This document shows positions 16,293 through 35,458 of a stretch of DNA of 37,080 bases, in pieces. Numbering within the stretch: the stretch's first letter is position 1; every line of letters begins with the position of its first letter. The DNA lies in contig JAHEKM010000004.1 in assembly GCA_024638325.1 (NCBI GenBank), positions 15,380 to 52,459 on the forward strand, in the 5' to 3' direction. A model generated the notes under the pieces. That model was not told where the DNA came from and did not search any database. It saw nothing but the letters and a program-made list of their open reading frames with translations. The position numbers were made by a program, and so were the translations under genes. This stretch comes from Gemmatimonadota bacterium. GTDB taxonomy: Bacteria; Gemmatimonadota; Gemmatimonadetes; Longimicrobiales; Gaopeijiaceae.

Positions 16293-17885
16293 CTACCTCT
16301 CCCCCGAGTACGCCTCGACGAACCACTGCCTGAACTCGTCCATGCGGCGCGCCGACGGAGGCCCGCCGGGGAGGGCCCCGTGCTGGAAGCCCCATGCGAG
16401 GAACGGAGCGACGAGCGCGGAGTCGCGAGCGACGACGTGCACAGGCACGTCTGCGCCTTCGGCTCCAGTGACCCAGGGCGCGGCCTGGTGGTCCCCCGAC
16501 ACGATCAAGAGCGTGCCATCGTCCAGGTAACGCTCGGCGAACTCGACCATCGCCTCGAGGGAGTAGGCTGTGGAGCGCGCATAGCCGTCCCGCAGCACGT
16601 CGACGTCCCACCACATCTCCTCCGGTGGATAGCCGTCCTGCCGGTATGGCTCGAACACCGATCCATCCCCGAGTCCATCCCACTCGATGAGAGGAAGCAC
16701 CAGCGTCCACGGCGCGTGGCTGCTCACCATCCCGGCCTCGACGAAGCGTGGCCCCCCACCGTCGGCCAGCAGGTCACCGATGAACGACCAGGTGAACTGG
16801 TCCGGAACGGTCACCCAGTAGAACGGTGGTCCCCGGTAAGGAATGGTCCGACTGGTATGGACCTCGTCGAACCCTATACGGTCGGCCTCCGGCCACGCGG
16901 TCGTGATCGCGGGCATCACGGTGGCCGTTCGGTACCCCGCGCGGCCGAAGTCGTCGAGCAGGTTCTCGCGGTCGCTCGCCAATACGATCTCGTACCGGAG
17001 CTGGTTTTCGAGCCAGAGGCCGTTCAGCATGGTTCCGTGCGCGTACCACGACTGCCCTCCGAGCGTGGGCGAGGTGAGGCGGCCGCTCACCACCCGCAAC
17101 CCGGCAGCCTCGAGTCGCGCCACGCCGGCCTCCAGGCGCGGACCTACGACGGCCTCGAGCTCGGGGTCGTCCAGGGCGGCCATCCCGTACGACTCCAGGT
17201 AGGCGAGCACCACGTGAGTTCCATCGAGACGGGCGAGCGGCTGCCCGATATCGATCCGTCCGTCGGGCCACTCCGCGAGGTCGGCCCCAAAGGCGATGCG
17301 CTCGGCCCTGGTCTCTCGCAGGTACTGGCTTTGGTCGGCTACCAGGGTCGCCGAGGGTGTGGCGACCCTGAGGGCAACCGGCTCTGCGGCGAGCCCCAAG
17401 ACAGTCAGCACCAGCGTGGACACCACTAGCCCAAGGGCCGCGCGCCCCAGGGGGTCACTGGGCGACGGGGGCTTGGCGCGCGGCCCTAGCGCCCACGCGA
17501 TCGCGAAGCTCATGCCGGCGCCGAGCCCCGTGAGCAGGACGAAGGCGGCCGCAGCGCGCAGGGTTCCCATGTTGCCGACCGCGAGGCGGCGCACCGCGTC
17601 CAACAGATAGAGGTCGAGGGACAGGTCGAGAGGCCGGCCCAAGCTCACCCGGAAGACCAGATCGCCGAACCAGACCATGGCCGTCAGCAGCACTCCGGCC
17701 GCGATTATCCAAGCCATGGCACGACTCCATGGGCGTCTGGGTAGGAAGATCATCCCACCCGCGATCAGGCCCGCCTCCACGGAAATCCACGGGGGCGTCG
17801 GCGTGCCCGTCAGGGCGGCAGAAAGCCAAGTCGGCCCTAGGAGGACGGCATTGACAAGCACCCAAGCGCACACGAGCCTGGTCAT
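16293..17885 (-). CDS. Membrane sulfatase-fold protein, LTA-synthase/phosphoglycerol-transferase-like
   Basis: 530 residues. Five hydrophobic helices in the first 175 residues are followed by an extracytoplasmic alkaline-phosphatase-superfamily domain. VVLAYLESYGM matches the LES metal-binding segment of LtaS/MdoB proteins, a Ser/Thr nucleophile probably lies in SPTLGGQSWYAHGTML, and VSGDHQ carries the C-terminal Asp-His metal ligands. The architecture is that of lipoteichoic acid synthase and MdoB, which move phosphoglycerol or phosphoethanolamine from phospholipids to glycans. It is divergent from the GTP cyclohydrolase II gene with 143 nt between, so it borders the biosynthetic cluster and might modify its product; that link is inference. 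Confidence 0.83.
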   Translation of the reverse strand: MTRLVCAWVLVNAVLLGPTWLSAALTGTPTPPWISVEAGLIAGGMIFLPRRPWSRAMAWIIAAGVLLTAMVWFGDLVFRVSLGRPLDLSLDLYLLDAVRRLAVGNMGTLRAAAAFVLLTGLGAGMSFAIAWALGPRAKPPSPSDPLGRAALGLVVSTLVLTVLGLAAEPVALRVATPSATLVADQSQYLRETRAERIAFGADLAEWPDGRIDIGQPLARLDGTHVVLAYLESYGMAALDDPELEAVVGPRLEAGVARLEAAGLRVVSGRLTSPTLGGQSWYAHGTMLNGLWLENQLRYEIVLASDRENLLDDFGRAGYRTATVMPAITTAWPEADRIGFDEVHTSRTIPYRGPPFYWVTVPDQFTWSFIGDLLADGGGPRFVEAGMVSSHAPWTLVLPLIEWDGLGDGSVFEPYRQDGYPPEEMWWDVDVLRDGYARSTAYSLEAMVEFAERYLDDGTLLIVSGDHQAAPWVTGAEGADVPVHVVARDSALVAPFLAWGFQHGALPGGPPSARRMDEFRQWFVEAYSGER

Positions 17886-18028: not shown

Positions 18029-19153
18029 ATGACGCACAAAACGGAACGAGGGATCTTCGAGCTTCGCCAAGGACGCTCGCTCTGCGTCACGGACGACGCC
18101 CGTGACGTGTGCGCGCTCGTGGCGGCGGTCGAGGGCATGAGTCCGCGTCAGCTGGACGAGCTCCGCTCCTTGGGGGCCCCGCTCCGCCTCGTGCTCACCC
18201 TGCACCGCGGGCGGGCTCTCGGAATCGGGGAGCGCTCAGGCACCTCCGACCTCAGCATACCCGTCGGTTCGGCCGAGACCCCAGCCTCGCTTCTCGCGCT
18301 CGCCACGGACCGCACGCCCGCGGCCGCAAAGGGCCGGGGCACGGATCAGCGGCCGGCGACGCGGGCCGAGTCCGCCGGGCTGGCGCTCGTTCGGCTCGGT
18401 CACCTGCTTCCGTCCCTGGTGTCCGTCGAGGTCGCGGTTGACGATCCCTTGGTGGCTGCATGGCTCGCCGAGGGTGCGATCCTGGACGTGGGCGCCGACG
18501 AGGTAGAGCAGGCCTTGTCGGAGGGTGGCATCGAGATCACGGAGGTGGCCGAGGCACCGGTCCCGCTCGCCGTCACCGATCACGCTCGTTTCGTCTTCTT
18601 CCGTGAGGGAGGGGGCCTGCAAGAGCACGTCGCCGTGCTGATCGGTGAGCGGGACAGCTGGCCCGATCCCGTTCCCGTCCGGCTGCACTCGGCCTGCCTG
18701 ACCGGGGATCTCTTCGAGAGCAGGCGCTGCGACTGCGGTGAGCAGCTCCGCGGCAGCCTCGAGCACTTCAAGAACCAGGGGGGCGGCGTTCTGGTCTACC
18801 TCGCCCAGGAGGGGCGAGGCATCGGTCTCGGCAACAAGATCCGCGCGTACTCGCTGCAGGAGACCGGCCTCGACACGGTCGACGCGGACGGTGTGCTCGG
18901 CTTCGGTGCGGACGAGCGCCAGTACGACGCCGCGGTCGCCATCCTACGCAGGCTCGGAATCGACCGGGTGGAGCTCCTCACAAACAACCCGGCCAAGGTC
19001 GGTGCGGTAGAGGGGGCCGGGATCGAGGTCGTCGAGCGCACGCCCATCTACGGCGGACTCAATCGCCACAATCTCCGCTACGTGAAGGCCAAGGTGGATC
19101 GGTCCGGCCACTGGCTCATGGACATGATCTCGCAGCCCGTTTCGGCGGATTGA
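18029..19153 (+). CDS. ribA: GTP cyclohydrolase II with decayed RibB-like N-terminal domain
   Basis: 374 residues from the ATG at 18029 (a GTG at 18002 is also in frame). The C-terminal half (about 190-370) is a complete GTP cyclohydrolase II: zinc ligands Cys223, Cys234 and Cys236 in SACLTGDLFESRRCDCGEQ, the nucleotide-binding QEGRGIGL, KIRAYSLQ with Tyr274, GFGADERQY and LLTNNPAKV. The N-terminal part (about 5-165) aligns by eye to 3,4-dihydroxybutanone-phosphate synthase (RibB), but the acidic DDEDRENEGD stretch has become TDDARDVCALVAA and the HTEA segment has become RAESAGLALVRLGHL. The RibB activity is therefore presumably lost. Tyr274 corresponds to E. coli Tyr105, so the normal product with formate loss is expected. 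It heads the forward arm of the cluster. Confidence 0.88.
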   Translation: MTHKTERGIFELRQGRSLCVTDDARDVCALVAAVEGMSPRQLDELRSLGAPLRLVLTLHRGRALGIGERSGTSDLSIPVGSAETPASLLALATDRTPAAAKGRGTDQRPATRAESAGLALVRLGHLLPSLVSVEVAVDDPLVAAWLAEGAILDVGADEVEQALSEGGIEITEVAEAPVPLAVTDHARFVFFREGGGLQEHVAVLIGERDSWPDPVPVRLHSACLTGDLFESRRCDCGEQLRGSLEHFKNQGGGVLVYLAQEGRGIGLGNKIRAYSLQETGLDTVDADGVLGFGADERQYDAAVAILRRLGIDRVELLTNNPAKVGAVEGAGIEVVERTPIYGGLNRHNLRYVKAKVDRSGHWLMDMISQPVSAD

Positions 19154-19169: not shown

Positions 19170-21971
19170 GTGGACGCGCAGGCCGACCCGATGGCGGCAG
19201 CGGGCGGCGGAATCCGGATCGACGGGAAATTCCTGGAGGTCGACGGCCGCCGTTTCCTGATCAAGGGCGTCGCCTACGGCACGTTCGCGCCCGACGCGGA
19301 CGGGGCGCAGTTCCCCACGGCGGACCGCATCGACCAGGACTTCGAGGCGATGGCCGCGGCCGGCATCAACGCGGTGCGGACGTACACAGCGCCCACCCCG
19401 ACTGTGATGGACGCCGCCGACCGACACGGTCTCTTCGTCATGGCGGGGCTGGCCTGGCCACAGCACGTGCCCTTCCTCGACGACCGCAAGCTGGCCAGGC
19501 AGATCCGCCGCGAAGCCGTCGACGCGGTTCGGCGACTCAGCGGTCATCCGTCGGCGCTCTTGTTCGCGGTCGGGAACGAGATCCCGCCGGGCGTCGTGCG
19601 CTGGCACGGACCCCGGCGCATCGAGCGCTTCCTCGGTGAGCTGTACGACGATGTGAAGTCGGCGGCGCCGCAGAGCCTCCTCACGTACGTGAACTTTCCG
19701 CCGACCGAGCACTTGGAGCTCGACGCGTTCGACGTCGCTTCCTTCAACGTCTATCTGCATCGCGAGCCCGACCTGCGAGCGTACCTGGCTCGCCTGCAGC
19801 ACATCGCGGGGAATCGGCCGCTGCTCCTGGCCGAGGCCGGTGGGGACAGCATCCGGGAGGGGCACGAGGGACAGGCCGACATCACGGCCGCACACCTGCG
19901 CGCGGCCTTCGCCGAGGGCGCCTGCGGGGCCGTGGCGTACTCCTGGACCGACGAATGGTGGCGGGGAGGAACGACAGTCGACGACTGGGCCTTCGGGCTC
20001 GTCGACGAAAGGCGGCAGCCCAAGCCGGCGCTCGCCGCGGTCCGCGAGGTGTTCGCTGAAGCTCCTTTCTCGTCCGCCCGACGGTCGAGCTGGCCCAAGG
20101 TGTCCGTCGTCGTGTGCGCATACAACGCGGAAGCCACGATCGACGACTGCCTGACCTCGCTCGCGCGGCTCCGCTACCCCGACTACGAGGTCATCGTCGT
20201 CGACGACGGCTCGACTGACGGCACGGGCGACCGAGCCCGGAGGCATTCGGGCGCGCGGGTCATCGGTGTGCCGAACGGTGGCCTGAGCGCCGCGCGCAAC
20301 GTCGGCCTCGCGGCGGCCACTGGCGAGATCGTCGCGTACACGGACGCCGACGTCCGAGTCGATATCGACTGGCTCGACTACCTCGTGCAGCCGTTGTTGA
20401 CGTCGGACGTGGTCGGCGTCGGCGGTCCGAACGTCGTTCCACCCGACGATCCGTGGGTCGCGCAGTGCGTTGCGCGTTCACCGGGCGGGCCGATGCATGT
20501 AATGCTCGACGACCGCATCGCGGAGCACGTGCCGGGCTGCAACATGGCGTTCTGGCGTGAGTCGCTGCTGAGCGTCGACGGCTTCAATCCGGTCTACGTC
20601 CGCGCCGGGGACGATGTCGACATCTGCTGGCGGCTTCAGGAGCGGAAGCATCACATCGGCTTCTCTCCGTCGGCCCTGGTGTGGCACCACCATCGGACCA
20701 GCGTGCGGGCGTACTGGCGCCAGCAGGTCGGTTACGGTGAGGCTGAAGCGCGGCTGGACGCGCACCACCCGGAGAAGTTCCTGGGCGGCCACATGGTATG
20801 GAGAGGGCGCATCTACAGCCCGCTTCCGTTCCTCAAGGCGGGGGCCGAGCGTCGCGTGAACACCGGCGTCTGGGGCACCGCCGCATTCCCTTCGGTCTAC
20901 GGGAGCCAGGGACACGGGTGGCGGTACTTGCCGCACACCCCCCTGTGGATTGCGTTGTCCTTGACGCTCTTCCTCATCGGCATCTTCGGACCGTTTGCCG
21001 GCATGGACGCCGCCTGGCTCCCGCTGATCGTCGGGGCTGTCGGCTGCGCGGCGACGCTCGGGCACTGTGCGTGGTGCGCGTGGCGGTCGGATATCGAGGG
21101 GCTCACGAGCTTCGGTCGTCGCCCGAGATGGCGGAGCCGGCTCCGCTCCCGGGCATTGATCGCCTGGTTGCACTTGCTCCAGCCCCTCGCCCGGTTCCGC
21201 GGCAGGCTGCAGGGGCTGTCGACACCGCAAACGGTCGAGCCGCAACACATGACGCGACACCCGTGGAAGGCTCCCTTGCCGACCCTGCGTGACGCGCTCG
21301 GGGCCGTACGCCTCGCGACGCGAGCGGGTCGGGAGCGCGCGTTCTGGGCCGAGTCGTGGGTGTCGCCGACGAGACTCCTCACCGAACTGGTTGGAGTGCT
21401 GCGAGCTGCCAGGCCGCCCCACATCGTCCACGTGGACGAGGGGTGGCACTCCGATCGGGACGTCAGTCTGGCCATCGGTCGCTGGGGTTGGCTCCACGTG
21501 CAGACGGTCTTGGAGGAGCACGAGCACGGAGCGTGTCTCTTCCGTACGCGTACCCGCTTGAGGCCGAGCTTCATGGGGACGCTGCGGGGCGCCACGCTCG
21601 CCGTGGTGGTGGCCATCGGCACCAGCGCGTCGATGTTCCGCTACGACACCACGCTCACACTGCTGGTGGCGGCTGTCGGCGTGGCGGGTATCGCGGCCTG
21701 GACGACCTGGCAAGCGATCCGCGGCGTGGTCGTGGTCGACGGGGCCGTCGACCATGTCACGCGTGTGGGAGGGCTCACCGAGATCGGGGCTCGGAGCGCG
21801 GGGGCAGGAGGCGGGCGCGGGCGCCGCGGCCGTGAGCCGGACATCTCGAACGAGGCCGACCCGACGCCATCCGACTCGGACGCGTCCATGCCCGAGTCGC
21901 TGCCCGTGGCACCCCGGTGGCAGCCCGAGCACCCGGCCGCGCGAGTCCAACGGGAGGGGGCCCCCAAGTGA
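19170..21971 (+). CDS. Fusion of glycosidase-like TIM barrel, GT2 glycosyltransferase and C-terminal membrane region
   Basis: 933 residues from a GTG at 19170 preceded by GGGGAAG. Residues about 15-295 resemble a glycoside hydrolase family 2-type TIM barrel (FLIKGVAYGTF, AVGNEIPP with Glu137, LLLAEAGGDS with Glu222, AYSWTDEWWRGG); both catalytic-type glutamates are kept. Residues about 308-570 are a GT2 transferase: VSVVVCAYNAEATIDDCL, VVDDGSTDGT, DxD at Asp392-Asp394 and DVDICWRLQ. Two helices follow GT2 (about 588-630), and another pair lies near 810-850. The C-terminus is Arg/Gly-rich and low complexity. It probably transfers a sugar at the membrane; the barrel may trim or bind glycan. The stop overlaps the ABC transporter start (GTGA). 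Confidence 0.85.
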   Translation: MDAQADPMAAAGGGIRIDGKFLEVDGRRFLIKGVAYGTFAPDADGAQFPTADRIDQDFEAMAAAGINAVRTYTAPTPTVMDAADRHGLFVMAGLAWPQHVPFLDDRKLARQIRREAVDAVRRLSGHPSALLFAVGNEIPPGVVRWHGPRRIERFLGELYDDVKSAAPQSLLTYVNFPPTEHLELDAFDVASFNVYLHREPDLRAYLARLQHIAGNRPLLLAEAGGDSIREGHEGQADITAAHLRAAFAEGACGAVAYSWTDEWWRGGTTVDDWAFGLVDERRQPKPALAAVREVFAEAPFSSARRSSWPKVSVVVCAYNAEATIDDCLTSLARLRYPDYEVIVVDDGSTDGTGDRARRHSGARVIGVPNGGLSAARNVGLAAATGEIVAYTDADVRVDIDWLDYLVQPLLTSDVVGVGGPNVVPPDDPWVAQCVARSPGGPMHVMLDDRIAEHVPGCNMAFWRESLLSVDGFNPVYVRAGDDVDICWRLQERKHHIGFSPSALVWHHHRTSVRAYWRQQVGYGEAEARLDAHHPEKFLGGHMVWRGRIYSPLPFLKAGAERRVNTGVWGTAAFPSVYGSQGHGWRYLPHTPLWIALSLTLFLIGIFGPFAGMDAAWLPLIVGAVGCAATLGHCAWCAWRSDIEGLTSFGRRPRWRSRLRSRALIAWLHLLQPLARFRGRLQGLSTPQTVEPQHMTRHPWKAPLPTLRDALGAVRLATRAGRERAFWAESWVSPTRLLTELVGVLRAARPPHIVHVDEGWHSDRDVSLAIGRWGWLHVQTVLEEHEHGACLFRTRTRLRPSFMGTLRGATLAVVVAIGTSASMFRYDTTLTLLVAAVGVAGIAAWTTWQAIRGVVVVDGAVDHVTRVGGLTEIGARSAGAGGGRGRRGREPDISNEADPTPSDSDASMPESLPVAPRWQPEHPAARVQREGAPK

Positions 21972-23791
21972 GCGTCGCGCGCTGGACTCTCGGCTTCCTG
22001 CGTCCCTATCGGCGCCAGGCCGCCGCGATCGTGGGCCTTTCGCTCCTCGAGGTCGGACTCCTGGCGCTCTCGCCGTGGCCGCTCCAGGTCATCGTCGACT
22101 ACGTGCTGGGTGGCCAGCCTCTCCCTGATGTGCTCGCGCGGATCACCCCCGCGGCAGTGGCGGGCAGCGCGACCGCGCTGCTGATCGTGGTCGCCGCCGC
22201 GGGGCTGCTCATCCAGATCGGCAACGAAGTCGTCCGGATGGTGCACACGCAAATGCAGGTGGTGGTGGCCCAGGACGTCGTCTATACGCTGCGGTCTCGC
22301 ATTCTGGCTCACCTCCAAGCGCTTCCGCTGCGGCACCACCTCGCTACGCCCACCGCGGATTCCGTCTACCGCCTCGATGCCGACGCGCACTGCGTGGACG
22401 ACCTCATCTTGGGAGGTGTCTTCCCCCTGGGCGTAGCCGGCCTCAAGCTCATCGTGATGTTCTCGGTCCTGGTGTACGTGGACGCGACGCTCGCGCTCCT
22501 GTCGCTGGGGGTCGCTCCCTTCTTGTTCGTCTGCCTGCGCTACTACTCGCGGCGGATGGTCGACCGGGCGGAGCGGGTGAAGGGGCTCGAGTCGCGTGTG
22601 ATCGAACGGGCATTCGAGACACTCTCGCTCGTGGCCGCCGTGAAGAGCTTCGCACGCGAAGGGTACGAGCTGGCTCGGTTCCAGAGAGCCGGTGACGAGA
22701 GCGTGCGTGCCCGGCTCGGCCTCACTTGGCAGGAGTCGCTCTTTTCGGTCACGGTGACGGGCATCACGCTGGTCGGCACCGGGGCCGTCCTCGTGGTGGG
22801 AGGCCTTCACGTTCTGGCTGGGACGCTCTCGCTCGGGACGCTGCTGGTGGTCATTGCCTATCTGGCCGCCGTCTACGATCCGCTGTCCGCCATCGCGCAC
22901 TCGACGGGCTCTCTGCAGCAGGCCGTCGCCAGCGCCCGGCGGGTCCGCAGCATCTTCGAGCTGACGCCCGAAGGTCTCGACGAGCCGGATGCGCTCGACG
23001 CCTCGGGCATCACCGGGCACGTCCACTTCGAGGACGTGAGCTTCGCCTACGACGGACAGAGCGAAGTCCTGCACGCGATCGACTTCGAGATCCGTCCGGG
23101 CGAGCTCGTGGCGCTGGTCGGCCCGACCGGGGCGGGCAAGACGACCTTGGCGAGCCTCGTCCCGCGGTTCTTCGAGCCGGTGTCGGGCCGGGTACTCATC
23201 GACGGCGTCGACGTGTCTCGGTACTCACTGAGGTCTCTCCGGGAGCGAGTCGCTCTGGTGCCACAGTTCCCGGTTCTCTTCACGGGCACGGTCGCCGACA
23301 ACATCCGCTATGGACGGCTCGAGGCGGCGGACGCCGACGTGGAGGCCGCGGCCCGGGCCGCCCAGGCGCACGACTTCATCGCGCGTCTGCCCAAGGGGTA
23401 TGACACGCCCATCGGGGAGGCGGGCGCCACGCTCTCGGGCGGTGAGCGCCAACGCATCGGCATCGCGCGGGCGCTCCTCAAACGGGCGCCGGTCATCATC
23501 CTGGACGAGCCCACGTCGGCCGTCGACGCGATCTCCGAGGGAGCCATCTTCGACGCGCTTCGGCGCCTCCGGCCGGACCACTCCATGCTCGTCATCGCGC
23601 ACCGACTCTCGACCGTGCGCGACGCTACCCGGATCCTCGTGCTCGACGGCGGCCGCCTCGTGGCGCAGGGCCCGCACGACGAGCTGATCGACTCGTGCGA
23701 CCTCTACCGTCGCATGTGTCAGCGCCTTTCCCTCGCTCCCTCAGGATCCGACGAGGGGGTGCCGGGAACGGCGGTGCGGGCCGTCTCGTGA
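21968..23791 (+). CDS. ABC exporter, fused membrane and ATPase domains (MsbA-like)
   Basis: 607 residues from a GTG at 21968 that overlaps the preceding stop. A six-helix exporter membrane domain (about 1-310) precedes a nucleotide-binding domain (about 340-590). The latter has Walker A GPTGAGKTT, Q-loop LVPQFPVLFTGTVADNI, signature LSGGERQRIGIARALL, Walker B VIILDEPTSAVD and switch His in IAHRLS. This is the half-transporter layout of lipid, glycolipid and peptide exporters and works as a dimer. Its place between glycosyltransferase genes suggests that it flips or exports the cluster's glycosylated product or a lipid-linked intermediate. The last codons overlap the next gene (GTGA). Confidence 0.92.
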   Translation: MSVARWTLGFLRPYRRQAAAIVGLSLLEVGLLALSPWPLQVIVDYVLGGQPLPDVLARITPAAVAGSATALLIVVAAAGLLIQIGNEVVRMVHTQMQVVVAQDVVYTLRSRILAHLQALPLRHHLATPTADSVYRLDADAHCVDDLILGGVFPLGVAGLKLIVMFSVLVYVDATLALLSLGVAPFLFVCLRYYSRRMVDRAERVKGLESRVIERAFETLSLVAAVKSFAREGYELARFQRAGDESVRARLGLTWQESLFSVTVTGITLVGTGAVLVVGGLHVLAGTLSLGTLLVVIAYLAAVYDPLSAIAHSTGSLQQAVASARRVRSIFELTPEGLDEPDALDASGITGHVHFEDVSFAYDGQSEVLHAIDFEIRPGELVALVGPTGAGKTTLASLVPRFFEPVSGRVLIDGVDVSRYSLRSLRERVALVPQFPVLFTGTVADNIRYGRLEAADADVEAAARAAQAHDFIARLPKGYDTPIGEAGATLSGGERQRIGIARALLKRAPVIILDEPTSAVDAISEGAIFDALRRLRPDHSMLVIAHRLSTVRDATRILVLDGGRLVAQGPHDELIDSCDLYRRMCQRLSLAPSGSDEGVPGTAVRAVS

Positions 23792-24909
23792 AGATCGTGC
23801 TCGCGGGCATCGTCGCCCGCTATCCGTTCGGCGGTGTCACCTGGTGCTCGCTCATGTACCTCCTCGGGCTCCGGGCGCTGGGGCACGAGGTGCTCTACAT
23901 CGAGGACACGGGCGAGTGCGTGTACGATCCGGAGCGGGACGAGATCTCGACCGACCCCTCGTACGGCACGCGCTACATCCACGACGCGCTGGAGCCGTTC
24001 GGGCTCGGCGATCGCTGGAGCTTCGTCAACTACGATGGGACGTACCACGGGCTCTCGCGCGAGGCCGTGCGGGCGTTCTGCTCGGACGCGGACCTCTTCG
24101 TGAACCTGTCGGGAGGGTCCTGGTTCTGGCGCGACGAGTATGCCGCGATTCCTCGTCGCGTCTTCGTCGACTCCGACCCCGTGTTCACGCAGCTCGCCAT
24201 CGCGAAGGGTGAGCCCTGGTACGTTGATTTCTTCCGTGGTTTCGACAGGCTCTTCACCTTCGGTGCCAACATCGGCACCCAGGCCAGCGACGTGCCCACG
24301 GGGGAGTTCGAGTGGCGCCACACGTGGCAGCCGGTGGTCACCGAGCTCTGGCGTCCGACGGAGGGTCCCACGCGGGACCGCTTCACGACCGTCATGACGT
24401 GGAAGACCGAGAGCTTTGCGGACGTCGACGGCAACAAGGACAGGGAGTTCCTCGGCTTCCTCGACCTACCGGCCCAGACGCACGCCCGCTTCGAGCTGGC
24501 GGTGAACGGACCCATGGAGCTGCTCGCCGAGCATGGGTGGGCGCCCATCGAGGCGATGGGCGTGTCGCGCTCGCTCTGGGAGTACCGGGACTTCATCCAA
24601 AGCTCCAAGGCCGAATTCGGGATCGCAAAGCACGCGTACGTGTCGCGGCGTTCCGGTTGGTTCAGTGACCGCACCGAGTGTTACCTGGCTGCGGGGAGGC
24701 CCGCGTTGGTGCAGGACACCGGCTGGACGGATCACCTCCCAGCGGGGATGGGCCTGGTCGCGTTCTCGACCGTGGAGGAGGCGCTGGAAGGCCTGCGGCG
24801 CATCGAGTGCGACTATCAAGCGCACGCCGAGGCCGCAGCGCGTATTGCCAGCGACCACTTCGACGCGACGCGCGTCCTGCCTCGCTTCCTCGAGGAGGCG
24901 TTGTCGTGA
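23788..24909 (+). CDS. GT-B type glycosyltransferase (CgeB-like)
   Basis: 373 residues from a GTG at 23788 inside a GTGA overlap; the frame extends back to 23695 but that part shadows the ABC gene. The N-terminus KIVLAGIVARYPFGGVTWCSLMYLLGLRALGHEVLYIED is a Rossmann strand-helix typical of GT-B enzymes. The C-terminal half contains AKHAYVSRRSGWFSDRTECYLAAGRPALVQDTGW, a donor-binding pattern seen in CgeB-like and related group-1 transferases, including an acidic residue before the YLAAGRP turn. Donor and acceptor are unknown. It sits in the chain of 4-nt overlaps and should be made together with the exporter and the GT4-deacetylase fusion. Confidence 0.8.
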   Translation: MKIVLAGIVARYPFGGVTWCSLMYLLGLRALGHEVLYIEDTGECVYDPERDEISTDPSYGTRYIHDALEPFGLGDRWSFVNYDGTYHGLSREAVRAFCSDADLFVNLSGGSWFWRDEYAAIPRRVFVDSDPVFTQLAIAKGEPWYVDFFRGFDRLFTFGANIGTQASDVPTGEFEWRHTWQPVVTELWRPTEGPTRDRFTTVMTWKTESFADVDGNKDREFLGFLDLPAQTHARFELAVNGPMELLAEHGWAPIEAMGVSRSLWEYRDFIQSSKAEFGIAKHAYVSRRSGWFSDRTECYLAAGRPALVQDTGWTDHLPAGMGLVAFSTVEEALEGLRRIECDYQAHAEAAARIASDHFDATRVLPRFLEEALS

Positions 24910-26735
24910 CGACGCCCCTTAGGATCGCCGTGGTCGGCCCGGTCGCCCAAGGAATTCCACCGGTCCGTTCGGGATCGGTGGAGAGCGTGACCGCGCTCCT
25001 CGTGGACGGACTCGTCGCCCGCGGTCACGCCGTGTCGCTCTTCGCAGCCGGAACCTCGCGCACGAGCGCGGAACTGCACGCGACCTTCGCGCGTGGCTAT
25101 CACGAGGACACCGACCTGTGGCCCTGGGAGCTCTGCGAGCTCATGAACCTGGCCGCCGCGGTCGAGCGTGCGGCCGACTTCGACGTCATCCACTACCAGG
25201 CGGAGTACGCGCCGTCGTCTTTGGCGTTCTCGCGGCTCTCACCGACCCCCGTTGTGGTCACCGTCCATCACGCGCCGTCGCCACCCGAGGTCGCTCTCTG
25301 GAGCCTGTACCCCGAGGCGCCCTTCATCGCCGTGTCGCGGGCCCAGGCGGAGCGGATGGCAGGGCTCGAGGTCGTGGGCACGATCCATCACGCCGTGGAC
25401 ACGGATGCTCTGAGCGCCCACCCCCGGCCGGGCGAAGACCTCCTCTTCTTGGGTCGCTTCACCGAAGGAAAGGGCGTGCTGGAGGCGATCGAGGTGGCCC
25501 GAGCTTCGGGCCGACGGTTGACGCTCGCGGCGGCGGAGAACGAGTACTACCGCGAGGTGGTCCAACCGCTCGTCGACGGTGAGCGCGTGGTCTACGTCGG
25601 AGAGGTGGGCGCCGCTGAGAAGGTCGAGCTGCTCGGCCGCGCCGCCGCCCTCCTGTATCCCGTCCAGTCGCCGGAGCCGTTCGGGCTCGTGCTTGCGGAG
25701 GCGATGGCGTGCGGTACTCCCGTGGCCGCCCTGAGGCAGGGGGCCGTCGCCGAGCTCGTCGACGAGGGGGTCACGGGCGGGTGCTTCGACACGCTGGACG
25801 CCCTCTCGGCAGGTCTCCCCGGGGTGTTGGCTCTGGACCGCGAGGGGGTGCGCCGCCGTGCCGTCGAGCGCTTCAGCCCATCGCGCATGGTCGACGAGCA
25901 CCTGGAGGTCTACGCGCGCCTCGTACGGCGACGAGTCACGAGCCCGCCGCACCACCCCGGTCCGCGCGCCGAGGGCGACCTCGCCGGCCGCTCTCTGCTC
26001 GTGTGCGTCGCCCACCCGGACGACGAGTCGCTGGCATGTGGCGGGCTGATCGCGCTCTGCGCCGAGCGAGGCGCTAGCGTGACGCTCCTCTGTCTCACGC
26101 GCGGCGAGCAGGGGCCCGGCGCGGGGAATGGTCCGCTCGGTGACGTCCGGGAACGCGAGCTCCGCGCCGCGGCCGAGGCGCTGGGCGTCGCGGAGGTGGT
26201 GCTCAAGGGTTACGAGGACGGCATGCTACCATGGGTCGACGCCGAGGTGCTCGAGGCCGACATCGCCGACGTGATACGCCGTGTGAGGCCCGAGGTCGTG
26301 GTCACCTTCGACGAAGACGGGCTGTACTGGCACCCGGATCACATCGCCGTTCACGAGCGGACGACAGCGGCGGTCACGGCGTTGGGTCCCGAGGCGCCCG
26401 CACTTCGCTACGTGAGCTTACCGGCCGGTGCGATTGCGGGGGTCGCCGAGAAGGCCGGAGGCGGCGCTGTGCTGGGCGTCGCCGATGTCGACGCCTTCGG
26501 CGCCATGGCTCCTCCTGCGTCGTTCGCGGTCGAGGCCGGCGAACTGGCGGGCCGCAAGGTGGCCGCGCTGCGGTGCCATCGTTCGCAGGTCGAAGGAGGC
26601 CCCTTGGCCCGGATCGCCACGGCCGACGCAGTGCGGCTCCTGGCCACCGAGCATTACCGGGTGGCGCCCGTGGGCGCGCCCGGCCCCGCATTCATCGATG
26701 GTTTCGGCACCCCGCTACGAGCTGCGAAGGTCTGA
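24906..26735 (+). CDS. GT4 glycosyltransferase fused to PIG-L/LmbE N-acetylglucosamine deacetylase
   Basis: 609 residues from a GTG at 24906 in a GTGA overlap. Residues 1-345 are a GT4 transferase: IPPVRSGSVESVTALLVDGL, LLFLGRFTEGKGV, and EPFGLVLAEAMACGTPV with an intact EX7E pair. Residues about 362-600 are a zinc deacetylase: AHPDDE (His370, Asp372, Asp373) and HPDH (His476, His479) match the PIG-L/MshB/BshB family. The order mimics MshA then MshB (mycothiol) or BshA then BshB (bacillithiol), where GlcNAc is added to an acceptor and deacetylated. A single chain doing both steps suggests a glucosamine-containing product. No cysteine ligase (MshC or BshC) is encoded here, so a thiol product is not supported. 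Confidence 0.88.
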   Translation: MTTPLRIAVVGPVAQGIPPVRSGSVESVTALLVDGLVARGHAVSLFAAGTSRTSAELHATFARGYHEDTDLWPWELCELMNLAAAVERAADFDVIHYQAEYAPSSLAFSRLSPTPVVVTVHHAPSPPEVALWSLYPEAPFIAVSRAQAERMAGLEVVGTIHHAVDTDALSAHPRPGEDLLFLGRFTEGKGVLEAIEVARASGRRLTLAAAENEYYREVVQPLVDGERVVYVGEVGAAEKVELLGRAAALLYPVQSPEPFGLVLAEAMACGTPVAALRQGAVAELVDEGVTGGCFDTLDALSAGLPGVLALDREGVRRRAVERFSPSRMVDEHLEVYARLVRRRVTSPPHHPGPRAEGDLAGRSLLVCVAHPDDESLACGGLIALCAERGASVTLLCLTRGEQGPGAGNGPLGDVRERELRAAAEALGVAEVVLKGYEDGMLPWVDAEVLEADIADVIRRVRPEVVVTFDEDGLYWHPDHIAVHERTTAAVTALGPEAPALRYVSLPAGAIAGVAEKAGGGAVLGVADVDAFGAMAPPASFAVEAGELAGRKVAALRCHRSQVEGGPLARIATADAVRLLATEHYRVAPVGAPGPAFIDGFGTPLRAAKV

Positions 26736-26739
26736 CCAC

Positions 26740-28008
26740 GTGAACGTCGCGCTTCTGGATATCCTGCGATGCCCGTTCTGTGGCACGGCGTTCACGGTCG
26801 TGGAGAACGAGGCACTTGTGCGGAGGGGCGACGAGATCCAGCAAGGGGTGCTCGGTTGCGAATGCTGCGCGTTTCCGGTCGTCGCTGGCATCCCCGTGCT
26901 CATCGCGGACGATGACGCCCGTCGTGCGATCGCGGCCATCGAGTCCGGTCAGGGCCGCGAGGCGCTGCTGGACCTTCTCGCGCGTGCGGCAGACGAGCCG
27001 ACGCGACGCCGGCTCTCCGAGATCGCGGACGGGGAGGGCGGTACCTATCGGGAAGCGCTGGCGCTCCTCTGTGACGACGCCGAGGGCGTCTATCTGCGCC
27101 ACCGGCTCGCCGACCCGACGTACGTCACCATGGAGGCCGTGCTCGACGCGCTGTCGCAGGACCCCGCCACGTTCGCGGGGCGGGTACTGGACCTCTGCGG
27201 TGGGGCCGGCCACGTCACACGTCTGCTCGCTCAGTTCAGGCACCCGACCGGAGCGAACGACTCGGCCGCGACGGTGCTCGCCGACCTGCACTTTTGGAAG
27301 CTCTGGCTCGCGCGGAGGTTCGTGGCTCCAGGTATCGAGGCGGTGGTTTGCAACGCGGACAGCCCCCTCCCCTTCGGCCGCGAGTGCTTCTCGGCCGTTC
27401 TCCTCGCCGACGCCTTCCCCTACATCTGGCACAAGCGGCTGGCGGTCGAGGAGATGATGAGGGTCGCAGGCGATGACGGGGTCGTCGTGATGCCCCACCT
27501 CCACAGCAGCCTCGGCGAGAACCACTCCGCCGGCGATACGCTCACGCCTGCCGCCTATCGTGACCTCTTCCACGGCTCACGAGAGACACGGCTCTTCAGT
27601 GATGCGTCGCTCTTGGACGACGTGCTGGAGAGCAGCGTGGTCGACCTCGGCGATGCTCGCACACCGGACGAGTTGGGCGAGGAGCCCTCCTTCACCCTGA
27701 TCTCGACCGGACGCACCGAGCTGTTCCGTCGCCACCAGCTCGCGCGACCCCGAGCGGTCACGGGCGAGCTACTCGTCAATCCGCTGTACAGGGTGGACGC
27801 GGCGGCTTCGGGATGGACGCTGACGCTGGACTTCCCGACGCCCGAGTACGAGGACGAGTTCGGCGCGTGTCGGCGTTATCTGCCGGAGCGGCTCGCGCTG
27901 GCCGTCGACCCGACCGGGCCGATCTCTCCCGAGTCGCTCGGCGACGCGTACGAGGATCTGCTGGACCGTCGGGTGCTGATCGACGCGCCCTTGGGGTACG
28001 GACGGTGA
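26740..28008 (+). CDS. SAM-dependent methyltransferase with N-terminal Trm112-like zinc ribbon
   Basis: 422 residues from a GTG at 26740, 4 nt after the previous stop; the frame runs far upstream in the shadow of the GT4-deacetylase. The first 60 residues look like a Trm112/YbaR zinc-ribbon module: ILRCPFCG (Cys11, Cys14), GCECCAFPVVAGIPVLI (Cys40, Cys43). The methyltransferase fold follows near residue 148 with VLDLCGGAGHVTRLL, where the usual GxGxG is present as GGAG. The C-terminal 120 residues have no recognised domain. Fused Trm112-like modules occur in small-molecule methyltransferases of biosynthetic clusters. The acceptor is unknown. The stop overlaps the next methyltransferase start. 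Confidence 0.83.
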   Translation: MNVALLDILRCPFCGTAFTVVENEALVRRGDEIQQGVLGCECCAFPVVAGIPVLIADDDARRAIAAIESGQGREALLDLLARAADEPTRRRLSEIADGEGGTYREALALLCDDAEGVYLRHRLADPTYVTMEAVLDALSQDPATFAGRVLDLCGGAGHVTRLLAQFRHPTGANDSAATVLADLHFWKLWLARRFVAPGIEAVVCNADSPLPFGRECFSAVLLADAFPYIWHKRLAVEEMMRVAGDDGVVVMPHLHSSLGENHSAGDTLTPAAYRDLFHGSRETRLFSDASLLDDVLESSVVDLGDARTPDELGEEPSFTLISTGRTELFRRHQLARPRAVTGELLVNPLYRVDAAASGWTLTLDFPTPEYEDEFGACRRYLPERLALAVDPTGPISPESLGDAYEDLLDRRVLIDAPLGYGR

Positions 28009-28874
28009 GCGGATCCGCGGACGTCGCCCGCTACTACGACAGCAACACCCGACGCTTCATGCTGTCAGGGCCAGGGGGTGGTGTGCACGCCATGCACCGC
28101 GAGCTCTGGGGCCCGGGCGTCACGACGTCCAGCCAGGCCGCGGAACACATCAATCGACTCCTGGGCGACGAGATCCACGACCTCCTCACAGCGGAAACGG
28201 GCCCACCGCGGTCTCCCGCCATCCTCGACTTCGGCTGTGGCGTCGGGGGTACGCTCTTTCACCTCGCGCGCCGCTTTCCCGACGCTCGGTTGAGCGGGGT
28301 AACGGTGAGCCAGCGGCAGGTCGACATCGCCCGGCGGCTCGCGCGGAAGCTCGGTTTTTCGGAACGCTGCGAAGTGCGCCGCGCCGACTTCCATACGCTC
28401 GAGTCCGGAGCCCGGGCCGACGTGTTGGTCGCCGTGGAGTCGTTCGCCCACAGCGACGGGGCCGACGTGTTCCTGGCGAGCGCGGCCCGGCAGGTCCGAC
28501 CTGGTGGACACGTCCTGATCGCGGACGACTTCCTCCTTTCGGAAGAGGACCGCATGGATGCGACGGAGCGGCGGGTAGTCGGGCGATTCCGAGCCGGCTG
28601 GCGGGTCCCCGCGGTGTGCACCGCGGACCATCTCCTCGAGGTGGCGCGCCGGGCCGGGTTCTCCGCGGTGCGCACCGTCGATCTCAGCGGACTGACGCGG
28701 CCCGGCAGTCGGGTGCGTGACAGGGTGCTGGCCCTGTTCAGCCCGTTGCTGACCGCGCTCCGTCTGGAACGGGTGCCTTTCTTCGGAAACCTCATCGGGG
28801 GCCACGCGCTTCAGATCGGCCTCGCAGGCGGATTCCTACGGTACCAGTTGGTCGTGTTGCGGAGAGTCGCTTGA
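28005..28874 (+). CDS. Class I SAM-dependent methyltransferase (UbiE/tocopherol-MT-like)
   Basis: 289 residues from a GTG at 28005 in a GTGA overlap. Motif I is ILDFGCGVGGTLFHLARRFP (Asp75-Gly79), followed by LSGVTVSQRQVDIARRLARKLG, the post-I/motif II pattern of gamma-tocopherol and sterol methyltransferase-like enzymes, and LVAVESFAHS and VRPGGHVLIADDFLLSE for motifs II and III. These enzymes methylate O, N or C atoms of small molecules. The N-terminal RYYDSNTRRFMLSGPG also fits this class. It is the second methyltransferase in tandem in the cluster. Confidence 0.88.
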   Translation: MSGSADVARYYDSNTRRFMLSGPGGGVHAMHRELWGPGVTTSSQAAEHINRLLGDEIHDLLTAETGPPRSPAILDFGCGVGGTLFHLARRFPDARLSGVTVSQRQVDIARRLARKLGFSERCEVRRADFHTLESGARADVLVAVESFAHSDGADVFLASAARQVRPGGHVLIADDFLLSEEDRMDATERRVVGRFRAGWRVPAVCTADHLLEVARRAGFSAVRTVDLSGLTRPGSRVRDRVLALFSPLLTALRLERVPFFGNLIGGHALQIGLAGGFLRYQLVVLRRVA

Positions 28875-29821
28875 GGGCCCGGCTGCCGCGCGCTACGATG
28901 CCGCACCTCGATCTCCCTAGAAGAGTGGCCAGCTTGGTGACCGCCTCCCGTATTGTCCTTCTGTCTGCCGCGCTACTGCTGCCGGCGGCCCCGGGCACAG
29001 CCCAGGACGCCGAGGACGGAGTGGCAGCGGTCGTCACGTTGGACGTCATGACCTTCAACATCCGCACGGCGGGTGGGCGGGACGGCTCCGACGCCTGGGA
29101 GTACCGGAAGGAGCTCGTCGCCGAGACCATCGGCGGTGCCAACCCGCATATCCTCGGACTGCAGGAGGCACTCACCGAGCAGATCGACTTCCTCGAGGAA
29201 GCGCTGCCGCAATACCGCTGGTTCGGCGTCGATCGAGGGTTGAATGGCGGGCAGGGCCTGAGCGAAGCCACGCCGATCTTCTATCGCTACGAAGAGCTGG
29301 CCCCCATCGAGGCCGGGACGTTCTGGCTGGGGAACCCGCCCGACGGTCGCCCCACGCGTCGCGGCCGCGGCTCGCGCATCGTCACGTGGGCACGATTCCA
29401 CCACGTCCAGACCGGACGTCAGGTGTATGTCTTCAACACCCACCTCACGCTGCGGGAGGGTCCGCGTCAGCACGAGGGCGTGGCGATCATCAACGAGCGT
29501 ATCGCGGCCCTCCCACCGGGGAGCGCGGTGGTCGTGCTCGGTGATTTCAACGCGCTCGCCGGCTCCAGCGGGACCTGGGACCTCGCGACCAGCCAGGGCC
29601 TACGTGACTCGTGGCACATCGCGCGAGCGCGTCAGGGTCCGGCCGTCACGTCCAACGGATTCGGACCGCCGCCCGAGGACTGGGAGGGACGCATCGACTG
29701 GATTCTCGTGGGCGGACCCATCGCCGTGCCTTCCGTGGCGACGATCGTGCACAGCGTCGAGGGTCGCTTTCCGTCGGACCACTATCCGGTGTTCGCGACG
29801 CTCGAGATCCATCCGAGCTGA
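28871..29821 (+). CDS. Secreted endonuclease/exonuclease/phosphatase (EEP) family protein
   Basis: 316 residues from a TTG at 28871 that overlaps the previous stop (TTGA); an ATG at 28898 is an alternative start. A hydrophobic segment (about 20-42, ending PGTAQD) is a likely signal peptide. The EEP catalytic set is complete: MTFNIRTA (Asn), LGLQEAL (metal-binding Glu), FNTHLTL, VVVLGDFNAL (Asp and Asn), GRIDWILV and the terminal PSDHYPV His. The family cleaves phosphodiester or phosphomonoester bonds in nucleic acids, inositol phosphates or lipids. An exported member inside a coupled operon suggests action on a phosphodiester outside the cytoplasm, for example in the cluster's product; this is inference. 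Confidence 0.83.
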   Translation: MRARLPRATMPHLDLPRRVASLVTASRIVLLSAALLLPAAPGTAQDAEDGVAAVVTLDVMTFNIRTAGGRDGSDAWEYRKELVAETIGGANPHILGLQEALTEQIDFLEEALPQYRWFGVDRGLNGGQGLSEATPIFYRYEELAPIEAGTFWLGNPPDGRPTRRGRGSRIVTWARFHHVQTGRQVYVFNTHLTLREGPRQHEGVAIINERIAALPPGSAVVVLGDFNALAGSSGTWDLATSQGLRDSWHIARARQGPAVTSNGFGPPPEDWEGRIDWILVGGPIAVPSVATIVHSVEGRFPSDHYPVFATLEIHPS

Positions 29822-29836: not shown

Positions 29837-30586
29837 GTGTCCGAGTGGTTCGGCCTGCTGCGCTCGCTCGCGGTCTATTGGCGACCCGGGAGGCAGAGGG
29901 GGCTGAGGCGCCTCTATGCCCCGTTCGTGCGTAGGGGCGACCTGGTATTCGATGTGGGCGCACATCTGGGAGACCGCACGGCAGCCTTCGCCGCGCTCGG
30001 GGCCAGAGTGGTCGCGCTAGAGCCCCAGCCCGCGGTAGCGCGTTGGCTGCGTCGCTTGGTAGGCGGCAAAGCTGGCGTAACCGTCCGAGACCAGGCGGTA
30101 GGGGCGAGGTCGGGGGTCGAGCGTATCGCTGTGAGCCGGCGCACGCCCACGGTGTCGACCATGTCAGAGTCGTGGCGGGCCGGCGTGGTCGAGGCGCATC
30201 CGGGCTTCGAGGGGGTGCGCTGGGACGCGTCCGTCGAGGTCCCCGTCGTCACGCTCGACGCTCTGATCGAGGAGTACGGCACGCCCGCGTTCTGCAAGGT
30301 CGATGTCGAGGGATATGAAGCGGAGGTGCTCGCCGGCCTGAGCTCGCCGGTGAGGGCGCTCTCCGTCGAGTTCGTGGCGGCGCAGCTCTCGGTCGCCGAG
30401 GCCTGTGTGCGGCGCCTGGCCGAGCTGGGGCGCTACCGTTTCAACGTGGTCCTGGGGGAGGGCCGCGGCTTCCTACTCGACGAGTGGGTCGGGTCCTTCG
30501 AGATGCTCGCCTGGCTGGCGGCCGGAGCGGACGGCGCGTCGTCGGGGGACATCTACGCGCGCCTCGACGAGCCTCCGCCCGTATGA
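29837..30586 (+). CDS. FkbM family methyltransferase
   Basis: 249 residues from a GTG at 29837, 15 nt after the previous stop. The SAM-binding motif is LVFDVGAHLGDRTAAFAALGARVVALEP and the family signature is FCKVDVEGYEAEVLAGL near residue 155. The middle region TVSTMSESW is commonly conserved in FkbM proteins. Family members usually O-methylate sugars, polyketides or other hydroxyl acceptors. In this cluster a sugar hydroxyl or a ribityl/pterin position is a reasonable acceptor, but that is inference. The stop overlaps the start of the creatininase-RibD fusion (ATGA). Confidence 0.9.
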   Translation: MSEWFGLLRSLAVYWRPGRQRGLRRLYAPFVRRGDLVFDVGAHLGDRTAAFAALGARVVALEPQPAVARWLRRLVGGKAGVTVRDQAVGARSGVERIAVSRRTPTVSTMSESWRAGVVEAHPGFEGVRWDASVEVPVVTLDALIEEYGTPAFCKVDVEGYEAEVLAGLSSPVRALSVEFVAAQLSVAEACVRRLAELGRYRFNVVLGEGRGFLLDEWVGSFEMLAWLAAGADGASSGDIYARLDEPPPV

Positions 30587-32319
30587 CCGCATCTCGCGGA
30601 CCCGAGCCGCCGCGCTGGGACCGACTCTCCGAGGCCGAGCGAGAGGCGGCGGTGGCGAGAGACCCCGTCGTCGTCTTGCCCCTGGCCGCGACCGAGCAAC
30701 ACGGGCCCCACCTTCCTCTCTCGACCGACGTTGACATCGGGATGGCGCTGCTCGTTGAGGCATTTGCCGGACTGCCGACCCCCATCGCCGCTTGGACGCT
30801 GCCGGTGGTGGCCGTCGGAGCCAGCCTCGAGCACGCGCGCTTCCCGGGGACCGAGAGCGTCTCGGCCGATGAGCTCGTTCGCATCATCGTGGATACCGGG
30901 ACGGCGGTGGCAGACGCGGGTGTACGGCGGCTCGTGCTCAGCAACAGCCACGGCGGAAATCGCTTCGCCATGGAGAGCGCGGGGCTCCTTCTGCGGGAAC
31001 GCCATGACATGCTCGTCGTGAAGGTGAGCTGGCCGAGGCTCGGACGTCCCGACGGCGTCGACCTCCCCGAGGTCGAGTGGCGGCACGGCCTCCATGGTGG
31101 AGCAGTGGAGACGGCGATGATGCTGCATGCCCGACCGGACCTCGTGCGTGCCGACGCGATCGCCGACTTCGCCTCGTTGGGAGCAGATCTGGAGGTCGCG
31201 CTCCGCCGCGTCGGCCCCGAGGGCGAGGCGTCCTTCTCCTGGCTGGCAGGGGACCTGAACCCTCGCGGCGTCGTGGGGGACGCGACGTTGGCGACCGCCG
31301 CGATGGGTGAGCGGCTGGTCCGGTACTACGGAGCGGTACTCGCAGAAGTGATTCTGGACGCGGCCGACTTCCCCCTGGATCGGCTCGTCCGGGCCGGGAC
31401 CTCCGGTTCCGCCGACGTTGGCGCCGTTCTCGACGAGCGGGCGGCCTGGGAGCTTCTTCGGGCGGCCCGCTCCGCGACACCGGGGAGTGGATCGGGCGGG
31501 CGACCCGACACCACGACCGTCGAGTCCGAGTCCGCTCCGCGCTTGCGTCTGGAGCTGCACGCCGACGGTACCTGGACCGCCGACGCCCCGCCCACGGAAG
31601 GGGCCAAGAAGCTGCTCGACGTCTTCGCCGCGATCGTCGCCGTCCCCGAAATCGTTATCGGACAGCTGGGCCAGAGCCTGGACGGACGCATCGCGACCGA
31701 GTCGGGCGCGTCGCACTACGTCACGGGTCAACAGGACCTGGAGCGCCTGCATCGGCTTCGCGCGCTGGTCGACGCGGTGGTCGTGGGCACGTCGACGGTC
31801 GCGCTCGACGATCCTCGGCTGACGGTTCGCCTCGTCGAGGGAGCGGACCCCGTGCGGGTCGTGCTCGACCCCTCCGGTCGCATCGACGCCGCGAGCCGCG
31901 TCCTCAGCGAGGTCGGAGGCAAGACGCTGGTCGTGCGGGCCGCCGAAGGCGCCGCGGTCGAGTCCGGCACCGACGCGAACGCCGCCAAGGGCGCCTACGA
32001 AGTGCTGCGCGTGCCCTGGTCCGCGCCGGGGGAGCTCGATCTCTCGCGCCTACTGGCCGACCTGCGGGCGCGCGGGCTCCGGCGCATCCTCGTCGAAGGT
32101 GGCGGCCTCACCGTGTCCCGATTCCTCGAGTGCGACCTGCTGGACCGCCTCCACGTGACCGTCGCCCCTCTTCTCATCGGCTCCGGCCGGCCGTCGCTGA
32201 CGCTGGAGCCCATTGTGGGGCTGGACGAGGCGCTGCGGCCGGCCGCACGCCGCTTCAGTCTCGGCGAGGACGTCCTGTTCGACCTGGACCTGCGAGCGGA
32301 GCCTTCAGGAGCGCCATGA
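30583..32319 (+). CDS. Creatininase-family amidohydrolase fused to RibD C-terminal reductase
   Basis: 578 residues from the ATG at 30583. Residues about 12-250 are a creatininase-fold hydrolase with metal ligands Glu38, His40 and Asp49 in the TEQHGPHLP region, His123 in SNSHGGN and Glu176 in HGLHGGAVETAMML. Residues about 355-575 are a RibD_C/pyrimidine reductase: GQLGQSLDGRIATESG, LRALVDAVVVGTSTVALDDPRLT, ILVEGGG and HVTVAPLLIGSG. About 100 linker residues separate them. In archaea ArfB (creatininase family) removes formate from a GTP-derived formamidopyrimidine and ArfC (RibD_C family) reduces the ribosyl group; this protein joins the same two families. MftE, also a creatininase relative, is the main alternative parallel. 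No deaminase domain is present. It ends the forward arm. Confidence 0.9.
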   Translation: MTASRGPEPPRWDRLSEAEREAAVARDPVVVLPLAATEQHGPHLPLSTDVDIGMALLVEAFAGLPTPIAAWTLPVVAVGASLEHARFPGTESVSADELVRIIVDTGTAVADAGVRRLVLSNSHGGNRFAMESAGLLLRERHDMLVVKVSWPRLGRPDGVDLPEVEWRHGLHGGAVETAMMLHARPDLVRADAIADFASLGADLEVALRRVGPEGEASFSWLAGDLNPRGVVGDATLATAAMGERLVRYYGAVLAEVILDAADFPLDRLVRAGTSGSADVGAVLDERAAWELLRAARSATPGSGSGGRPDTTTVESESAPRLRLELHADGTWTADAPPTEGAKKLLDVFAAIVAVPEIVIGQLGQSLDGRIATESGASHYVTGQQDLERLHRLRALVDAVVVGTSTVALDDPRLTVRLVEGADPVRVVLDPSGRIDAASRVLSEVGGKTLVVRAAEGAAVESGTDANAAKGAYEVLRVPWSAPGELDLSRLLADLRARGLRRILVEGGGLTVSRFLECDLLDRLHVTVAPLLIGSGRPSLTLEPIVGLDEALRPAARRFSLGEDVLFDLDLRAEPSGAP

Positions 32320-35063: not shown

Positions 35064-35458
35064 ACCGGCCCTTCGTAGCTGCCCCACGCCACGTGGGACT
35101 CGTGAAGCGTCACGCATACCGCTGCGAGCCCACGCGCGCCCTCTCCCAACTTGCCTTCGCGCGCCGCGCCCACGATGCGCTCCTGGATCTCCCGGGCGAG
35201 GAACTCCGTGGTCGTGTTCTGGCCCTCGAAGACCGGCTCATCGTCCAGGTTGCGGTAGTTCATGTCCTCGAGAATCGACCCGAGCAGCTCCGAGGCGAGC
35301 CCGATGTCGACCACGAGGCCGTCGCTGTCGAGTTCGGCGCGCCGGAAGGTGGCGTCCACCACGTACGTCGCGCCGTGGAGTCGCTGTGCGGGACCGAAGA
35401 TCTCGCCTTCGAAGCTGTGAGCGATCATGAAGTGGTCGCGGACGTTCAGGCTGTACAT
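35060..35458 (-). CDS. 6-pyruvoyl-tetrahydropterin synthase/QueD homologue lacking catalytic residues
   Basis: 132 residues, the usual length of the T-fold PTPS/QueD family. MIAHSFEGE keeps the first zinc-type His (His14), but the C-x3-HGH motif has become A-x3-HGA: Cys to Ala24 and the last His to Ala30. The catalytic Asp-His pair (DHHYLND in E. coli QueD) is NYRNLDD here, so Asp to Asn67 and His to Tyr68. The pterin-anchoring Glu120 in [11 protein letters not shown] and the NTTTEFLA segment are retained. This matches the published description of Streptomyces coelicolor SCO6650, a PTPS homologue without zinc or catalytic triad but with a pterin-type pocket. It probably binds or acts differently on a pterin-like ligand. 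It lies between the MDR dehydrogenase (39-nt gap) and the GT4 (4-nt overlap). Confidence 0.88.

Follow-up and report, generated by a model that had tools for sequence, protein, structure and literature searches.

Why should a GTP cyclohydrolase keep, at its N-terminus, a domain that has lost the chemistry of a second riboflavin enzyme, and which pathway does such a protein serve? The window, that is the whole 37,080-nucleotide stretch of DNA analysed here, raises both questions through a RibA-like gene at positions 18029–19153 (+ strand), which encodes 374 residues from an ATG start codon. An in-frame GTG is also present at 18002; the ATG at 18029 is the start that matches the relatives of the protein. 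The host is a Gemmatimonadota metagenome-assembled genome (MAG) of 3.1 Mb in 202 contigs, about 80% complete (G000; the window lies on contig C195), and the closest named relatives of the protein, themselves from Gemmatimonadota MAGs, are 58–69% identical to it across the whole length.

The protein consists of an N-terminal domain with the RibB fold but without the RibB active site (18029–18532, + strand, residues 1 to ~167–168) and a GTP cyclohydrolase II (RibA) domain (18536–19150, + strand). Among the library models, NCBIfam NF006456 (PRK08815) alone covers both halves, with 322 bits for the whole protein, below the curated cut-off of 464 bits, and 54.5 bits for the N-domain alone; its name and description are silent on an N-terminal RibB remnant. 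The explanation that we favour, with a probability of roughly 60%, is that this is the GTP cyclohydrolase II paralogue of a specialised biosynthetic cluster shared across phyla, in which the RibB remnant has been kept as a structural or docking module.

A paralogue beside a complete riboflavin operon

The original prediction, made from the DNA alone, took the gene to be a paralogue rather than the housekeeping ribBA, and a search of the genome for a second, intact ribBA bears this out. Contig C124 carries RibB (298 bits) and RibA (257 bits) in a single ORF, within a complete rib operon of the order ribD-ribE-ribBA-ribH, in which ribD (deaminase and reductase), riboflavin synthase and lumazine synthase adjoin ribBA. 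The RibA-like gene of the window is therefore a paralogue. Full-length copies occur in 19 of 198 genomes of the class, the present one included, and all belong to one family. A strong RibB match is found in all 62 genomes of that family that were examined, so the paralogue accompanies a RibB and does not replace one. Searches with Rfam gave no match, and no FMN riboswitch above the gathering score, in the window or in loci L091 and L089.

A separate observation concerns genera g2, g7 and g16 of the same family. In five of six sampled genomes (G143, G006, G041, G053 and G035) the only RibA match above the cut-off lies inside the RibB ORF (L094–L098), and in the four of these that were read (L095–L098) the RibA part has lost its zinc and catalytic motifs and is RibBX-like; the sixth genome (G187) has no RibA match. 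Archaeal GTP cyclohydrolase III was found in none of seven genomes (these six and G000). Lumazine synthase is present in all six, yet the first step of riboflavin synthesis is without a recognised enzyme there.

The N-terminal domain is a RibB homologue

Direct HMM searches list no PF00926 match in the N-domain, even at E-values up to 1, nor any other Pfam match. Profile-profile alignment (hhalign) gives a different picture. A profile of 18 Gemmatimonadota N-domains matches the RibB profile of the canonical RibBAs of the class with a probability of 96.3 (E = 1.8e-9), rising to 97.5 (E = 7.8e-12) when nine alphaproteobacterial N-domains are added (27 sequences); the nine alone reach 91.6. These are single-pair E-values, to be taken together with the column-shuffle control, in which the observed score was reached by 0 of 200 shuffles in each of the three tests. 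Reversed profiles score near 10, against 48–78 for the real comparisons, and no match to the RibB profile is obtained with the RibA half of these proteins. The Gemmatimonadota alignment holds 20 rows, the window copy and 19 relatives (L005 and L019 were left out), of which 18 entered the N-domain profile (without L006 and L008); the RibB reference has 11 rows, 10 of them distinct because one protein appears twice, as L001 and as L002. The alphaproteobacterial copies come from plasmid records: nine of the matches H1–H13 were taken in, H4, H6 and H10 being left out along with H2, which is from the same strain as H1.

The fold was also predicted with AlphaFold2 from an alignment of seven sequences. 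Residues 1–160 have a mean pLDDT of 62–91 per ten-residue block, mostly above 75; the RibA half is poorly modelled (mostly below 50), so that the model speaks for the fold of the N-domain and not for the arrangement of the two domains. The top solved structures for the modelled domain (Foldseek, VIA) are RibB/DHBP synthases, with Z-scores of 14.5–16.7 over approximately 150–167 residues at about 3 Å; the two-domain chain 6mnz is also among the matches, with a large rmsd in its alignment. The best-scoring fold of another kind, the YrdC/Sua5/HypF type, has a Z-score of about 5. That the domain could be another alpha/beta fold, unrelated to RibB, draws on the silence of the HMM libraries, but a Z-score of about 16 for RibB against about 5 for its nearest competitor, together with the profile homology, makes this hardly credible. 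The first half of the paralogue is thus a RibB homologue in which the fold is kept, as two independent routes agree. The claim that the first ~165 residues retain a RibB fold pattern was to be checked by just these two methods, and both recover RibB, with no sign of an unrelated fold.

Loss of the synthase active site

The 27 N-domain sequences were mapped column by column onto the RibBA of the same genome. The acidic loop is replaced, with a gap at the R and E of DRENEGD; since RibBA position 33 is still D in 14 of the 27 sequences, the first aspartate is often retained. The block from TAFTVSIDA through GVTTGISA lies entirely in a gap, so that the centre of the active site is deleted. At the GQTEA site, neither an H/Q nor an E is conserved in the proper columns. 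Compared with a bifunctional RibBA, the protein has the RibB fold in its N-terminal half but none of the motifs DRENEGD, TTGIS and G[H/Q]TEA. Judged by its sequence, the domain is dead as a DHBP synthase.

The mapping onto an intact RibBA confirms the predicted loss of the acidic DDEDRENEGD and the HTEA catalytic segments, with one amendment. The second site is indeed lost, but HTEA itself is no firm marker here: the textbook form of this motif is GHTEA, whereas the canonical RibBAs of the class have GQTEA in 11 of 12 distinct proteins and GHTEA in one (L001, L029–L039).

The RibA half appears intact

Pfam model PF00925 (GTP_cyclohydro2) matches residues 173–339 with 186.4 bits, against a cut-off of 23.3. 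Alignment to the E. coli enzyme (PDB ID: 2bz0) shows that Cys223, Cys234, Cys236, Tyr274, Asp295 and Arg297 are kept, and they are invariant in seven of seven sequences; we take the three cysteines to be the zinc ligands and the other three residues to be catalytic. All five RibA motifs are present in each of the 20 Gemmatimonadota rows, and among the nine alphaproteobacterial rows they are found in 9, 9, 9, 8 and 9. The pattern is the opposite of that in RibBX, as here the RibB motifs are gone and the RibA half is intact. The FAPy-releasing GTP cyclohydrolases II of Streptomyces (SCO6655 type) have a methionine in place of the tyrosine of the RAY motif, and loss of this tyrosine leads to FAPy as the product. 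In the paralogue Tyr274 is retained, and a RAY-type motif is found in 20 of 20 Gemmatimonadota rows. The RibA half is probably functional as a GTP cyclohydrolase II.

An old architecture under loose constraint

The original prediction called the RibB domain decayed, which implies a recent, local loss. This does not hold, because all 20 aligned Gemmatimonadota copies and the nine alphaproteobacterial copies share the combination of a dead RibB domain with a RibA domain, and recent decay was dropped as an explanation on the same grounds. The fusion of RibA to a dead RibB domain is of long standing in bacteria.

Selection was estimated by the Nei-Gojobori method. In near pairs, dN/dS is approximately 0.25–0.4 for the N-domain and 0.1–0.2 for the RibA half, and in the closest pair (dS 0.21) the values are 0.08 and 0.01, respectively; many other pairs give 0.5–0.76 with high dS and are unreliable, and most pairs are close to saturation in dS. 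With about two to four times the evolutionary rate of the RibA half, the N-domain is only loosely constrained. The domain is nevertheless under purifying selection, looser than that on the RibA half, which would fit either a structural or a regulatory use. Nearly invariant scaffold residues include E6, R7, R60 and P128.

These data bear on what the domain is for. It might be a useless, passive leftover of a RibBA ancestor, as its faster evolution and lost active site would allow; yet it has been kept across two phyla, it is untruncated in the aligned Gemmatimonadota rows, and its dN/dS is well below 1 in near pairs, so that we consider this distinctly improbable. The main rival to a structural or docking role is a regulatory one, in which the former RibB pocket would bind a metabolite of the pathway and tune the RibA half. 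There is a precedent in the RibBX protein of S. oneidensis, whose dead X domain is reported to tune the RibB half (PMC10012899), and both the purifying selection and the near-invariance of E6, R7, R60 and P128 are in keeping with such a role. On the other side, the central substrate block and nearly all pocket residues are lost or variable and no new conserved pocket motif is seen, which leaves regulation as the strongest of the alternatives, though still an unlikely one. We therefore return to the structural or docking module: the RibB remnant persists under purifying selection although the active site is missing throughout the family, and it would serve the RibA half in folding, dimerisation or docking.

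A conserved gene cluster surrounds the paralogue

The proteins of the window were compared by tblastn with 18 other Gemmatimonadota neighbourhoods of the paralogue, some of which are cut by contig ends, and the fractions below refer to these. Upstream, on the opposite strand, lies a sulfatase/LTA-synthase-like membrane protein (16293–17885, –), which has no Pfam match; it recurs in 17/18 neighbourhoods, and on Rhizobiaceae plasmids it matches genes annotated as sulfatases. Downstream, 16 nucleotides after the RibA gene, Pfam matches identify a GH2-like plus GT2 glycosyltransferase (19170–21971, +; also in G117 and G104). It is followed on the same strand by an MsbA-like ABC exporter (21917–23791, +; Pfam and NCBIfam) and, by Pfam, a GT4 plus PIG-L deacetylase protein (24678–26735, +), a methyltransferase-like protein (26428–28008, +), a methyltransferase (27813–28874, +), a member of the endonuclease/exonuclease/phosphatase family (28871–29821, +) and an FkbM methyltransferase (29837–30586, +; 16/18). 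The next gene (30484–32319, +; 15/18) encodes a creatininase-family domain followed by a RibD_C reductase domain, with no deaminase domain.

The remaining genes are mostly on the other strand. They encode an LPG_synthase_TM or flippase-like protein (32255–33313, –, by NCBIfam; Pfam matches the longer ORF 32255–33982), a class I methyltransferase (33196–34005, –; Pfam, and tblastn on the neighbourhoods), a GT4 glycosyltransferase (34002–35117, –; Pfam, 17/18), a PTPS/QueD-like protein (35060–35458, –; PF01242, E = 1.8e-21; 16/18), a zinc-ADH-like dehydrogenase (35498–36475, –; Pfam, 16/18) and a CDP-alcohol phosphatidyltransferase (36509–37078, +; PF01066, E = 1e-14; 16/18), which reaches the end of the window. 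In a test of co-occurrence, all 19 genomes of the family that carry the paralogue had the cluster dehydrogenase, as did one (G135) of the 43 that lack the paralogue.

The cluster is not confined to the phylum. Cluster genes lie near RibA in six of the nine alphaproteobacterial plasmid loci, and the cluster and ribA occur together on plasmids of Rhizobium, Peteryoungia, Agrobacterium, Methylosinus and Palleronia (by annotation; by tblastn in Rhizobium SSA_523). For the other three copies, the RibAs of Microvirga, Cereibacter and S. fredii, a search of the surroundings to about 10 kb shows none of the cluster genes. As a separate observation, the same set is represented on a plasmid of Candidatus Thiodictyon syntrophicum (L044) by genes for the dehydrogenase, the PTPS, the GT4, the methyltransferase, the RibD-family protein and the CDP-alcohol transferase; the 40.8 kb of it that were examined gave no match to RibA.

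In a tree of the RibA domain, cluster and non-cluster copies are intermingled, so the architecture either predates membership of the cluster or is independent of it; the tree was midpoint-rooted for drawing and carries a long-branch warning, and it places the RibAs of Palleronia and Cereibacter next to canonical RibBA. Together with the non-cluster plasmid copies, this led us to drop the architecture as a mark of cluster membership. The earlier idea that the dead domain marks a specialised paralogue thus survives in part. The paralogue is bound to a cluster, as the neighbourhoods and the distribution of the dehydrogenase show, but since Microvirga, Cereibacter and S. fredii have the same architecture outside it, the dead domain occurs independently of the cluster and is by itself no mark of specialisation. 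Specialisation is evident from the gene neighbourhood, not from the dead domain.

Deaminase motifs are present in the housekeeping RibD and absent from the cluster reductase, and the creatininase domain of 30484–32319 occupies the position that the deaminase has in an ordinary RibD. The six proteobacterial RibD-family proteins of the cluster are 252–324 residues long and do not have the HAE motif, while one has a PC...C match. The PTPS-like protein keeps a TTTE-type segment, but the Cys and the second His of CxxxHGH, presumably the catalytic cysteine and a zinc ligand, are replaced in 14 of 14 aligned cluster sequences. This protein may bind a related ring without performing the usual chemistry.

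In six neighbourhoods from two genera (L061, L063, L065, L069, L071 and L083; genomes G120, G056, G062, G185, G141 and G147), an upstream membrane GT2 (MdoH-like) continues in frame into the paralogue without an intervening stop, in ORFs of 1002–1099 residues. This is an apparent glycosyltransferase–RibA fusion, and in those genomes the opening of GTP might take place at the membrane.

A possible pathway and its product

In the explanation that we favour, the RibA half would open GTP to the diamino-ribosylamino-pyrimidinone, and the RibD-type reductase without a deaminase and the later enzymes would convert this product to something other than riboflavin. Riboflavin synthesis needs the RibD deaminase; a cluster reductase without one suggests that the 2-amino group is retained in the product, and this is a concrete clue to its nature. 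The genes for the CDP-alcohol transferase and the flippase-like, sulfatase-like and glycosyltransferase proteins point to a membrane-bound product, and the end product would be glycosylated and probably lipid-linked. A pterin is not a secure assignment because the PTPS of the cluster is without the canonical catalytic Cys and zinc His. The creatininase domain counts against this explanation, as it has no obvious substrate should RibA work normally.

That domain is the basis of another alternative, a split GTP cyclohydrolase in which RibA would release formylated FAPy and the downstream creatininase domain would deformylate it. The fusion of a creatininase domain to RibD_C within the cluster would suit such a division of labour, as would the precedent of BrbF of S. 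meliloti, a member of the creatininase family that is reported to be an FAPy formamidase (PMC9478397). The proteobacterial clusters contain a RibD_C gene but, by tblastn, no creatininase match near RibA. Tyr274, whose loss gives FAPy in Streptomyces, is also kept, and we regard a split cyclohydrolase as improbable. We put forward as a possibility, on which we would not place even odds, an undescribed pathway in Gemmatimonadota, Alpha- and Gammaproteobacteria. It would lead from GTP through the dead-RibB RibA, the deaminase-less RibD reductase (with an amidohydrolase in the place of the deaminase in Gemmatimonadota) and a PTPS-fold protein without canonical catalytic residues to glycosylation and lipid anchoring. 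A search of the literature for the gene combinations of the cluster found no description. Taken alone, the dead domain is a modest finding; it gains from the cluster, which appears to put riboflavin-type chemistry to the making of another product.

Relation to known fusions with a dead half

Dead halves in RIBA-type fusions are already known from published accounts of plant RIBA3 and of RibBX. Arabidopsis AtRIBA3 is a bipartite protein reported to combine a dead DHBPS half with a working GCHII half and to be of a type retained throughout the vascular plants (PMC3509567), and the likeness to the paralogue described here lies in the pairing of a dead RibB half with a RibA half. In RIBA3 the loss is described as exchanges of essential residues (PMC3509567), whereas here the central active-site block is deleted; RIBA3 has no gene-cluster link and the present paralogue has one. 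RibBX (Shewanella, Acinetobacter, Aeromonas and Bradyrhizobium; structure 6mnz) is likewise a fusion with one dead half, but it is a mirror image, with RibB working and the RibA-like half dead. With the two mirror-image cases, what a dead half contributes to RibBA-type fusions could be tested by deletion of the domain. The literature searched yielded no account of a bacterial RibA that has a shortened, dead RibB half and belongs to a cluster shared across phyla.

The BrbF branch of S. meliloti resembles the cluster in having a creatininase-family protein beside a GTP cyclohydrolase step. BrbF is reported to serve riboflavin synthesis; the creatininase domain of the window, by contrast, forms one protein with a RibD-type reductase and belongs to a cluster apart from the complete rib operon of the genome. 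According to the report on BrbF, its GTP cyclohydrolase partner is yet to be discovered (PMC9478397). The dead-RibB RibAs that lie outside clusters, such as that on the S. fredii plasmid (L048) and those at L046 and L047, might be considered as possible candidates for this partner.
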